Origin: Chloroflexota bacterium
Lineage (GTDB): Bacteria; Chloroflexota; Dehalococcoidia; Lucifugimonadales; VXLM01
DNA length: 32,341 nt
Reading direction: 5' to 3'
NCBI GenBank assembly: GCA_026713145.1
Contig: JAPOPA010000157.1
Location: forward strand, 1 to 32,341
This document shows, in pieces, positions 19,130 to 26,389 of this stretch. The notes under the pieces are model-generated. The model had not been told where the DNA came from, searched no databases, and saw only the letters and a list, made by a program, of their open reading frames with translations. Both the position numbers and the translations under genes were made by a program. Within the stretch, counting starts at the first letter, position 1. Each line of letters begins with the position of its first letter.

Positions 19130-19219
19130 GGAGAGTTGCCAGAGTGGACGAATGGGCACGACTGGAAATCGTGTGTGCCCGCAAGGGTACCGTGGGTTCG
19201 AATCCCACACTCTCCGCCA
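19130..19219 (+). tRNA. tRNA-Ser(GGA), CCA encoded
   Basis: GGAGAGT...ACTCTCCGCCA acceptor, anticodon arm CACGA-CTGGAAA-TCGTG, long variable arm, GTGGGTTCGAATCCCAC T-arm. Confidence 0.95.
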
Positions 19220-19375: not shown

Positions 19376-20556
19376 ATGACACTATCGGCGACGCGGGTTA
19401 GGGCCCTCAAGGAACCGGGACGATACTCTGATGGTGGGGGTCTACACCTATTCATCAGCAAGGCTAGGCGCAAGTCATGGGTGCATCGCATCACCATCGA
19501 CGGGCGCCGTCGGGATATCGGACTGGGAGGATTTCCTTCGGTAAGCCTGGCTCAAGCGCGAGAGAAGGCGGCTGCCAATCGGACGGCCGTCGCGGGCGGT
19601 CGCGATCCACTGGCCGACAGTCGCAGGCCTGCGATGCCGACGTTCAAGGAAGCCGCCCATACCGTCCATGAGGCGAACAGACCACGTTGGCGTATGGCAA
19701 GCACGCCGCAGGCTGGATGGGGAGTCTTGAGCGACACGCAATGCCGATACTGGGCGGCATGCCCATCGATCGCATAGGCCGTGCCGACGTGCTGCGAGTT
19801 CTTACACCGATATGGACGACGCACCCGGAGACCGCTCGAAGGGTACGTCAGCGGATGCGGACTGTCTTCCGATGGGCGATGGCGCACGGCTTCACGGAGA
19901 GCAACCCGGCGGGTGAAGTCATCGACGGCGCGCTTCCGCCTATGCCGAAGGTGAGAGCGCATTTCAGGTCGCTACCCTATCAGGAAGTCGGGTCGGCGCT
20001 CGAAACCGTCGAGGCGTCGCCAGCTTCGGCAGCAGCCAAGCTGTGTTTCCGTTTTCTGGTTCTAACGGCTGCGCGCTCCGGCGAAGCTAGGGGAGCAACG
20101 TGGGACGAAGTCGACGAGGTGGGGCAAGTGTGGCGGATTCCGTCCGAGCGAATGAAGGCAGGCGTTGAGCAACGGGTGCCTCTGAGCAGTCAGGCCCTTG
20201 ATGTGCTAGCCGCGGCGAGCACCCTGTGCGATGAGTCCGGCTTGGTGTTCCCGTCACCGCTGAAGCCGGGCGTGCCGATGTCGGACATGACGCTAACGAA
20301 GATACTTCGTTCAACCGGCCTGGCGGAGCGAGCGACCGTTCATGGGTTCCGCAGCAGCTTCAAGAACTGGACGCTGGAGCAAACGGAGACACCTTGGGCC
20401 GTCTCCGAGGCGGCACTTGCGCATACCCTGGGCAATTCGACTGAACAGGCCTATGCCAGGTCCGATCTCTTCAAGCGCCGCCGCACGTTGATGCAGCTGT
20501 GGGCGGACTACATAGCGGGCTGTCAGGGAACAGGAGCCGACGACGCTTCGACCTAA
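19376..20556 (+). pseudogene. Tyrosine-type site-specific integrase (DUF4102/P4-type), interrupted by one frameshift
   Basis: N-terminal frame MTLSATRVRALKEPGRYSDGGGLHLFISKARRKSWVHRITIDGRRRDIGLGGFPSVSLAQAREKA...HEANRPRWR is continued in another frame by GKHAAGWMGSLERHAMPILGGMPIDRI...LTAARSGEARGATWDEV...TVHGFRSSFKNW...ALAHTLGNSTEQAYARSDLFKRRR. Break near 19693. Confidence 0.9.
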
Positions 20557-22687: not shown

Positions 22688-23794
22688 GTGCCTGGTTCAC
22701 CGGGGCCCATGAATCATGACGCTAGAGAACTAGCAGCGGTCCTAACCAGAGAGTTTCTTATAAACGGAAACTACGGCTCAGGAGAAGCAGCTATTGCTAG
22801 TAGAGCGTTTCGCTCACTAGCACCTATATCTATATCATCAACGCCACAATCATATCCGCTGCAAGAAAGAGGGTTTGCTGGCCTTGCGGTTCAGTCGGTT
22901 GGGTATGCGGAAAAGGAGGACGGAGACTCTGTTCACATCTACGTTTCGCGAGGCGACAAGAGAAGCCTAAATAGGATTTCACGCCCGATTGACGGCATAG
23001 AGGTCAATGTTGCCAGTCTAGGGAACCTTGTGGTGCGCCCAGAGGCTATAAGCTCCGCTAGCATGGGCGGGAAAGTCTATCAAAGAAACGGACGAATTGC
23101 CTGTGGTAGCTCGTGTGCTCCCGCTAACGCAAACTACGCGGGAACTTTTGGTGCCCTAGTTCTTCACGAGAGCCGACTCTTGGCACTATCTAACAACCAT
23201 GTTTTCGCGGGATGTAATCAAGTTCCAGTTGGACAACCTATTCTAGCTCCTAGTGCTGTTGACTCTACACCACGATTGCCCTCGCCTAGAGAAATATGTC
23301 GCCATGAACGCATCGTTGAGTTGCGTACCGGAACACCCGACTTAGTCCCAAAAGTTCGGTCGGACGCCGCAATAGCTGAAGTGTTAGATCGCAGCGGAGT
23401 GACTTCTTGGCAAGGGCCTAGCTATGGCGGATATGACACTCCGCACAACACGATTGACCCTATGGCTGGAATGCGGGTGAAGAAGGTGGGTCGCACGACT
23501 GAAATAACATCAGGAACCGTTGAATCAGTATCTCTTTTGTCACGTGTCCCCTACAGGACTCAAGGATTCACAGCCACCGTATGGTTTGAGGATGTTTGGA
23601 CTGTTGTAGGGGACCGAGGAGAAGCATTTGCTCTACCAGGTGACTCTGGTAGTCTCGTGGTCACAGAGGACGAAAGATACTCCGTAGGTCTACTTTTTGC
23701 GGCAAGCCCCAAAGGTGATAGAGGCATAATCGCCCCAATCAACACGATACTGCGGCAACTGTCGCTGAGTCTTGTTAGCAACCACGGACTATGA
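22688..23794 (+). CDS. Nal1-like trypsin-fold serine protease
   Basis: N-terminal domain GFAGLAVQSVGYAEKEDGDSVHIYVSRGDKRSLNRISRPIDGIEVNVASLGNLVVRP, then protease-like motifs: GTFGALVLHESRLLALSNNHVFAG (His), VRSDAAIAEV (Asp), EAFALPGDSGSLVVTEDERYSVGLLFA (Ser in GDSGS). Confidence 0.8.
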   Translation: MPGSPGPMNHDARELAAVLTREFLINGNYGSGEAAIASRAFRSLAPISISSTPQSYPLQERGFAGLAVQSVGYAEKEDGDSVHIYVSRGDKRSLNRISRPIDGIEVNVASLGNLVVRPEAISSASMGGKVYQRNGRIACGSSCAPANANYAGTFGALVLHESRLLALSNNHVFAGCNQVPVGQPILAPSAVDSTPRLPSPREICRHERIVELRTGTPDLVPKVRSDAAIAEVLDRSGVTSWQGPSYGGYDTPHNTIDPMAGMRVKKVGRTTEITSGTVESVSLLSRVPYRTQGFTATVWFEDVWTVVGDRGEAFALPGDSGSLVVTEDERYSVGLLFAASPKGDRGIIAPINTILRQLSLSLVSNHGL

Positions 23795-24006
23795 ACCTCA
23801 AAACAAAGCAAGCAGCGCTTTCGCTACAGGAGTCCCTAGAAGGATATCCCTGGTTCACTACTGTTGGAATTGCGCACCTCGACGGCTCGGATACGCTAAT
23901 AGTTTACGTCAGCCGTAATACAAAAAGGATTCAGAGTAGGGTGCCTGTTGCGTGGCAAGGCTATAAAGTCTGCACAAAGAAAATGGCGCAGCCAGCCCCA
24001 CTGTAG
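23791..24006 (+). CDS. Small protein resembling a stand-alone N-terminal domain of the adjacent protease
   Basis: MNLKTKQAALSLQESLEGYPWFTTVGIAHLDGSDTLIVYVSRNTKRIQSRVPVAWQGYKVCTKKMAQPAPL. ATGA overlap with the protease stop; VGIA....D.L.VYVSR..KR...R.P....GY.V parallels the protease N-domain. Confidence 0.7.
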   Translation: MNLKTKQAALSLQESLEGYPWFTTVGIAHLDGSDTLIVYVSRNTKRIQSRVPVAWQGYKVCTKKMAQPAPL

Positions 24007-25121: not shown

Positions 25122-25352
25122 TTATCTCGGCAATGTCTTGTTCGAGTTGGCCGAGTCGAACTCACCCGTGGCCAACGGCCTCGACTCCACCCATCTCGTA
25201 ATCTCGCTTGCCTTCCACCTGACGGCGGCGGGCCCGACCCTCACGGGTACCGGGAATTCTCCGTTCCTCATCAAGCGGTAGATCGAAGAGCGGCTTAGAC
25301 CGGTGATGTCCTCAACTTGTCTACGTCGCAGCAATCTGTCATTCACGTTCAT
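25122..25352 (-). CDS. AlpA-family / MerR-like helix-turn-helix regulator (excisionase-type)
   Basis: NDRLLRRRQVEDITGLSRSSIYRLMRNGEFPVPVRVGPAAVRWKASEITRWVESRP is a classic AlpA pattern. Confidence 0.92.
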   Translation of the reverse strand: MNVNDRLLRRRQVEDITGLSRSSIYRLMRNGEFPVPVRVGPAAVRWKASEITRWVESRPLATGEFDSANSNKTLPR

Positions 25353-26389
25353 TCTCAACTCCTCTTCTCAATTCCAAATTACGAACGGGTGGAGCTTGCT
25401 TCTCGACGCGCTGAGGGACGAGGCAGGCGTAGCCACCAAACCCGCTGAGTGGTGACACTCCTGTCATGGATCCTCCGTTGAATTCCACCCCACATTGCCC
25501 CTCGCACTCGTTTCCGAACCCGTCCGCCTGCTCTTCATCTCCGAGCTTCGTCTCGTCAAGCGCGACGGCCTCGTCCAGAGGCCTCCGCAGCGAATGCAGG
25601 TACGGCTCCTTGGCGAAGGCCAGTCCGACCCGCATCCTCACGTCGATCTCCACCGCCTAGGCGAACAGTTCCGACCAGCGGCGCGTCGTCTCGACTCACC
25701 GCTGTCGAGACTGGAAGGGACAGGGGGCGCATGCCGAGCGTTCTAGCGGACGGGCATAGCGAGCCGACCACCAGTCGATGCAGTCCCGTCTGGACATCCC
25801 GGCCTGGATCAGCGGATAGCGATTCCCTACCCAAGGATCGCGGGAGTCCTTCATTCGTGCGGCCTCGTCGGTGGAGATGCCAAGCCACAGCTCGGCGGTA
25901 GTAGCGGACGGGACACGTTGACCTTTCCTCAGTCTCAGCAACTCGCGTATCTTTCGGTGGATTGGCATGACCTTGTAGTTAGCAGCGCACTGCCGCCGTC
26001 CAATGCCGTTGCTCTCCCCGTCGCGTCCCTTCAGGAAGACGGGAATGTCCATGTAGCTCCGGGAGCCGGAGTGGTTGGTTAGGGCCTTCACGTCCTCTCG
26101 GAGGCTCATTCCCCCGTGTCGAGCACGGGGCAGGCTGTTGTCCACGACGTAGACGGGGAATCGAAGCTGATCCTTGAGCCACTCGATATATTCGTAGACG
26201 GTAGGCGGCTCCCAGTGGGTGTCGGCGAAGATTGCGCAGTCTGGTACTACCGAAGGCACCCCCCGATCCAGTCGGGGGCAGGCACTCTCCTAGCATGAGG
26301 GCCGTAGTCGAGACCTGTCCTCGACTCCGATCGGGGAACTGCACTCCTCCGCCGAGACTGACGACGGTCAAGGTCGGGCCGGACTGCAT
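25339..26389 (-). pseudogene. PAPS-reductase-like (PP-loop) gene, broken by an insertion, a frameshift and two in-frame stops
   Basis: Pieces in order: MQSGPTLTVVSLGGGVQ[27-nt insertion]STTALML; frame change; VPDCAIFADTHWEPPTVYEYIEWLKDQLRFPVYVVDNS...RRQCAANYKVMPIHRKIRELL...WLGISTDEAARMKDSRDPWVGNRYPLIQAGMSRRDCIDWWSARYARPLERSACAPCPFQSRQR; TGA; VETTRRWSELFA; TAG; AVEIDVRMRVGLAFAKEPYLHSLRRPLDEAV...FGNECEGQCGV. The core and C-terminal segments share one frame. Confidence 0.85.

Follow-up and report, generated by a model that had tools for sequence, protein, structure and literature searches.

A Nal1-family serine peptidase gene and an overlapping gene for a putative solo copy of its N-terminal domain in a mobile element of the Chloroflexota

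An integrative element of a Chloroflexota bacterium carries the gene of a Nal1-family serine peptidase, the stop codon of which overlaps the start of a gene for a 71-amino-acid (aa) protein, predicted to be a solo copy of the N-terminal domain of the same peptidase. Small ORFs of this kind directly follow the gene in all independent complete close homologs and in many distant relatives. The reading preferred here, with a probability of roughly 0.55, is that the pair forms a coupled operon of an intracellular Nal1-family peptidase and a dedicated solo NAL1_N partner that would dock on it, and that it serves as a cargo device for defense or conflict in a clade of mobile elements. The window analyzed was the 32,341-nt stretch of contig JAPOPA010000157.1 (assembly GCA_026713145.1), the relevant features of which are listed in Table 1.

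Table 1. Position of the gene pair, its functional sites, and neighboring features of the element in the window
Feature	Position	Strand	Evidence or remark
Nal1-like serine protease	22709..23794	+	361 aa from ATG 22709; alternative GTG 22688, 368 aa
NAL1_N-like N-terminal domain of the protease (predicted)	22721..23017	+	AlphaFold2 secondary structure and profile matches
Catalytic His, residue 164 (SNNHVFAGC)	23198..23200	+	Invariant in 10/10 aligned proteases
Probable catalytic Asp, residue 219	23363..23365	+	Invariant in 10/10 aligned proteases
Catalytic Ser, residue 313 (GDSGS)	23645..23647	+	Invariant in 10/10 aligned proteases
ATGA stop/start overlap linking both genes	23791..23794	+	Sequence
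71-aa solo NAL1_N-like domain, putative protease partner	23791..24006	+	ORF, BLASTP, HMM, profiles, AlphaFold2
tRNA-Ser (gga), probable insertion site of the element	19130..19219	+	ARAGORN; integrase directly downstream
Tyrosine integrase of the element	19687..20556	+	Pfam Phage_int_M, 3.5e-23; Phage_integrase, 6e-19
AlpA-type regulator of the element	25122..25358	-	Pfam Phage_AlpA, 1.5e-20

The preliminary description of this region had named the first protein a Nal1-like trypsin-type protease, which was borne out by three kinds of evidence. The protein reached 30 bits with the Pfam model Nal1_C (PF25819; cut-off, 26.1 bits). Rice NARROW LEAF 1 (NAL1) accounted for all 32 best PDB fold matches of its AlphaFold2 model (mean pLDDT, 73.5; pTM, 0.78) in Foldseek, with E values from 2.1e-13, and bacterial chymotrypsin-type enzymes ranked behind. 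The trypsin-type triad H164/D219/S313 was intact and did not vary in ten aligned relatives. Judged by sequence and model, the protein is a Nal1-family serine peptidase, the sole Nal1_C protein detected in this genome assembly. Its relatives match the PHROGs entries phrog_25502 (unknown function) and phrog_20754 (protease). The start of the gene is uncertain, and the ATG at 22709 is favored over the GTG at 22688 because of the alignment with the starts of relatives and the length.

A NAL1_N domain is predicted to precede the catalytic domain. The Pfam scan did not list NAL1_N for the window protease, a profile that includes its N-domain (A8) matched NAL1 chains in the PDB with an E value of 0.012, and the relative L021 gave a NAL1_N match of 3e-5, under the curated cut-off. 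The AlphaFold2 model of this domain contains a helix (residues 5-18), two strands (60-67 and 74-81), a second helix (84-90), and a third strand (97-103), and a long low-confidence loop separates helix 5-18 from the elements between residues 60 and 103. The window protease thus resembles NAL1 and the bacterial Nal1-like S1 peptidases (PF25608, PF25819) in its best PDB fold over both domains, in a Nal1_C score above the cut-off, and in an N-domain profile that finds NAL1. It differs in that the Pfam NAL1_N model does not reach the window sequences, and the plant protein has been described without a separate solo-domain partner gene.

For the second protein, a free copy of the protease N-domain had been proposed, together with a profile-profile search and a structure prediction as the means to examine it. 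Profiles of the two were compared and each protein was modeled by itself, and homology and the same order of structural elements were found. The direct pairwise similarity of the two sequences is weak (27% over 62 aa; BLASTP E value of a single comparison, 4e-5). The small proteins of the close family, compared as a profile with ten protease N-domains, gave a probability of 96.3 and an E value of 1.5e-9, and a broad set of small proteins gave 98.0 and 2.4e-13. AlphaFold2 predicted for the small protein (pLDDT, 87) a helix (3-16), two strands (22-30 and 33-40), a helix (45-50), and a strand (58-64); this helix-strand-strand-helix-strand order is common to the models of the small protein and the protease N-domain. 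In the HMM search, the window protein ranked at the top along with its relatives. The profile-profile E values and the shared predicted order support the assignment of the 71-aa protein as a solo copy of the N-terminal domain, as far as sequence and models can tell. A Pfam scan yielded no PF25608 match for the 71-aa protein itself; its stand-alone relative L090 exceeds the cut-off of this NAL1_N model (35.3 versus 27 bits). Pfam contains models for Trypco1 and Trypco2, and full Pfam scans at E values of up to 1 showed no match to either; nor did the small protein match any effector-associated domain (EAD) in Pfam. Against PDB folds, the small-protein model gave weak and uninformative matches alone (KH domains and the C-terminal domain of MamM). 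Among viral models, uncharacterized phage proteins of 67 to 97 aa share the predicted fold with a TM score of about 0.8 (BFVD A0A249XS89, B5LJ31, and A0A6J5RTM5, two of them from the mycobacteriophages Phabba and Myrna).

Close homologs of the protease are 31 to 48% identical to it. They originate from a Prosthecobacter metagenome-assembled genome (MAG; L005), a Rhodospirillales MAG (L006), a genome of the same order as L005 (L075), and the viral contigs L031, L032, L033, L067, L068/L069, L070, L071, and L072/L073, with L075 being the intact version of L033. Two entries are incomplete: L070 ends at the contig edge, and the L072 protease holds a transposase gene. This interruption spans L072:2164-4675, and the same gene is intact in L073:3707-4882. 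A small ORF is located at the protease stop in nine of nine independent complete close homologs (L005, L006, L031, L032, L033/L075, L067, L068/L069, L071, and L073; the window is not counted). The junction is either a stop/start overlap or a gap of 1 nt (L032) or 3 nt (L067). The ATGA at positions 23791-23794 of the window, which had been noted earlier as common to both genes, was confirmed by the ORF calls and the window sequence, with the start of the small ORF at 23791 and the protease stop ending at 23794. The two genes may be translated as one coupled operon. Similar-looking small proteins are also encoded upstream of the protease in L068:3287-3523 (78 aa) and L070:2559-2981 (C-terminal part of 140 aa); the 78-aa protein had no family match.

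The comparison was extended with an HMM for which ten small proteins of the close family were the sole input and which was used to search 1538 ORFs around 40 distant Nal1-like proteases. At E values below 0.01, all eight stand-alone matches (L059, L062, L016, L081, L082, L028, L008, and L014) came from ORFs that immediately follow the protease gene in the same orientation. This count leaves out the proteases and a piece of one split protease (L028 801-1469); L081 and L082 had been found via the small-domain search, the remaining six by searching for proteases. A broader model, which is partly circular because some of these loci contributed to its building, adds L010, L013, L015, L020, L060, L061/L064, L076, L077, and L079, as well as copies 5' of the protease (L025/L090) and divergent copies (L007, L009). 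No nearby solo copy was seen for the proteases L018, L021, L023, L065, L066, and others. Among 349 genomes of the phylum of L006, the small-domain profile matched three places, all three beside a Nal1-like protease. In the window's phylum (301 genomes), the small domain was scored in 13 genomes; 12 of them encode the protease as well, and the remaining one was a chance match. A few solo copies in this phylum do not adjoin the protease. The hit in G219, inside an ABC ATPase, and the hit in L106, within a long unrelated ORF, were rejected as chance matches. Solo copies apart from any protease are present in L087, L088, L091, and L099. The window's own genome has a second solo NAL1_N-like domain (G000:C256:2596-2781 on the minus strand; L099:1480-1929), and the L099 ORF encodes 149 aa with an N-terminal hydrophobic segment and is without an adjoining protease. 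There was no tblastn match of the small protein in the plasmid collection, no match of the protease in phage records with close queries, and no match of the L005 small domain in a scan of viral sequences. The genome-context survey of close and distant relatives thus agreed with the expectation that the small gene recurs beside homologous proteases in unrelated islands. The two points on which the preliminary description had made its proposal depend, structural likeness of the small protein to the N-domain and conservation of the small ORF, were both found.

The small ORF is a real gene, because amino acid changes are far rarer than silent ones (pN of 0.25 versus pS of 0.77, and 0.33 versus 0.70, between related loci) and because it is present in every complete close homolog. 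In a tree of 53 domains, which has few columns and many unresolved forks, small proteins and N-domains fell mostly into separate groups (8 label changes versus 18 by shuffling). The distances between small proteins track those between the catalytic domains (r = 0.92; none of 5000 permutations as high), a correlation that shared operon ancestry alone may explain. From the separate tree groups, the co-divergence, and the mostly silent differences, it follows that the small partner is an old, co-inherited gene and not a recent duplicate. The small ORF probably arose by duplication of the N-domain, as also assumed if it were a functionless duplicate in decay; that it is such a duplicate is nearly excluded by purifying selection, the same junction across phyla, and the old split from the N-domains. 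The duplication-decay and chance-ORF readings were rejected on the tree split, the silent-biased differences, and the distant 3' HMM matches.

The close family resides in integrative islands, prophages, and two restriction loci (L005 and L006). In the Prosthecobacter locus, the end of an HsdS gene is followed by the protease and then by a small domain that continues in frame into a type I HsdR (L005:1635-4640). The HsdR part matches the PADLOC model REase_I (E = 3e-294) and TIGR00348 (2.6e-177). After the small domain, no in-frame ATG, GTG, or TTG occurs before the HsdR body begins, and GTG 1818 inside the small domain is a possible alternative start. This HsdR fusion is a single case and comes from a MAG; if real, it connects NAL1_N to a restriction nuclease. 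The pair of L006 is in an island bounded by an integrase gene and tRNA-Ala, and the gene directly upstream of it encodes a type IIG restriction enzyme-methylase. In L012, a second copy of the domain forms the C terminus of the protease, for which no N-domain was recognized. The context of a more distant relative on a Rhizobium leguminosarum plasmid includes an M48 protease and a phospholipase D protein of the DrmC type. In the Rhizobium plasmids L007 and L009, a Nal1-like protease is located beside radical SAM and HEXXH peptide-modification genes, and the solo NAL1_N-like ORF is divergent. The bacterial NAL1 relatives are annotated as "hypothetical protein" in the plasmid records examined.

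The fusions to a protease (L012) and a nuclease (L005) make a docking partner the simplest model. The solo domain would dock on the peptidase through N-domain-like contacts, as N-domains may dock on each other. The docked partner may set the assembly or activity of the peptidase and bring it to its target, and a partner fused or bound to another protein would deliver that protein to the protease. In Prosthecobacter, the peptidase would act as if tethered to HsdR, either to activate or to alleviate restriction: HsdR may be activated by cleavage, comparable to the nuclease-protease pairs described in PMC12799240, or removed, comparable to the alleviation by ClpXP (PMC4231737). ClpXP acts on EcoKI HsdR, and this restriction alleviation is a known control of type I restriction (PMC4231737). 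A protease acting on HsdR is a possible parallel for L005; ClpXP is a housekeeping AAA+ protease, whereas L005 encodes a dedicated Nal1-like peptidase of putative role within the locus. The protease-free solo copies, the proteases without a nearby solo copy, and the fact that the HsdR fusion is single were counted against the docking model. A wider version is conceivable, if more doubtful, in which NAL1_N serves bacteria for homotypic recruitment, comparable to the EADs, and proteases dock on free copies or on copies fused to effectors such as HsdR.

A toxin-antitoxin-like or inhibitor pair would also suit the location on mobile elements, the small size and tight 3' coupling of the partner, and its divergence together with the protease. 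In such a pair, the free protease is harmful, the small protein mimics the N-domain or fills its docking site, and loss of the small protein frees the protease. The cis fusions to protease (L012) and HsdR (L005) and the protease-free solo copies fit a docking domain better, which renders inhibition unlikely as the explanation. The conserved adjacency, and the defense nuclease-protease pairs that act by cleaving a neighbor (PMC12799240), may indicate instead that the small protein is a mere substrate or pro-signal cleaved by the protease. This is improbable: the partner is homologous to the enzyme's own domain and ends where that domain ends, and the alignments showed no conserved cleavage motif.

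Another candidate function concerns the mobile elements themselves. HTH-Peptidase_S24 repressor genes are near the pair in the viral contigs L031, L068, and L070, and the window element encodes HTH regulators. These settings would suit a protease that cleaves its own element's repressor in the way ImmA does with ImmR, with the small protein presenting the repressor or controlling its cleavage. ImmR and ImmA are the regulatory pair of ICEBs1 (PMC8960796). As a lysogeny or element switch, the pair would be rather improbable. The repressor genes vary in sequence and position among the loci; L005, L006, and L075 have no adjoining repressor and possess restriction or lysis genes instead, with the L075 pair coming after an endolysin-like ORF; and many distant homologs are on plasmids or in other genomic contexts in which no repressor was seen.

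The window element begins at the tRNA-Ser with the integrase gene and carries AlpA, replication-relaxation, and TraG/TrwB-like genes. No attachment repeat of the element was found within the window. The pair is positioned in a GC-poor patch (0.50 versus 0.60 to 0.67). A weak PADLOC match to SspD (E = 6e-6) was obtained for a PAPS-reductase-like protein of the same element (25696-26259, minus strand). The preliminary description had suggested a defense or conflict role for the pair, and this holds in part. In its favor are the two restriction loci, one of them with the HsdR fusion, and the islands and prophages that harbor the other pairs. Against it, the pair of the window is not flanked by any recognized defense, effector, or restriction gene, and neither the protease nor the small protein is represented by a PADLOC model. 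Within the docking model, the module would most likely be a cargo defense or conflict device in the mobile-element clade that includes the window.

Known systems resemble the pair in some aspects. The trypsin-like proteases paired with MBL nucleases in Hachiman, AVAST, Lamassu, and DRT (Tuck et al. 2025, PMC12799240) also combine a trypsin-type protease with a coupled partner gene, and this protease is swapped between defense loci (PMC12799240). Their partner is an upstream MBL-fold pro-nuclease, and HamA, Avs1a, or LmuA forms a fusion protein with the protease. The partner in the window, in contrast, is a small 3' NAL1_N domain, the protease carries its own predicted N-domain, and no long ORF able to encode an MBL-fold nuclease adjoins the pair. 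The EADs and Trypco1/Trypco2 (Kaur et al. 2020, PMC7159879) share with the pair the use of one small domain in a regulator and its neighbors, or the pairing of a trypsin-like peptidase with the product of a small adjoining gene. The window differs from these systems in the missing Trypco1/2 or EAD match of its small protein and in having no VMAP, MoxR, or vWA genes. A putative serine protease of the Aeropyrum coil-shaped virus (Alphaspiravirus yamagawaense) is likewise virus-borne and Nal1-like, with an N-domain match and a tblastn E value of 7e-19 with a Rubrobacter relative, but it is distant and belongs to an archaeal virus. Both the protease family and the concept of a conflict module made up of a protease and its partner are already known (PMC7159879, PMC12799240). 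A search of open papers, with subscription papers outside its scope, for bacterial Nal1-like proteins, NAL1_N, and the Pfam accessions returned nothing relevant, and within the searchable literature neither the solo NAL1_N partner nor its fusion to HsdR seems to have been described.

In several phyla, the bacterial relatives of NAL1, a crop-yield gene, are accompanied by a conserved partner gene that lacks annotation and is made of their own N-domain. This offers a direct handle on the control or targeting of Nal1 proteases and is perhaps also relevant to the plant enzyme. Since the pair recurs in distant bacteria and prophages and twice beside restriction genes, it points to an as yet undescribed module of protease and partner with a possible role in phage defense, and is a candidate for a new protease-based defense module. 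Homotypic recruitment by NAL1_N, if true, would define a whole unrecognized class of protease-controlled conflict systems.
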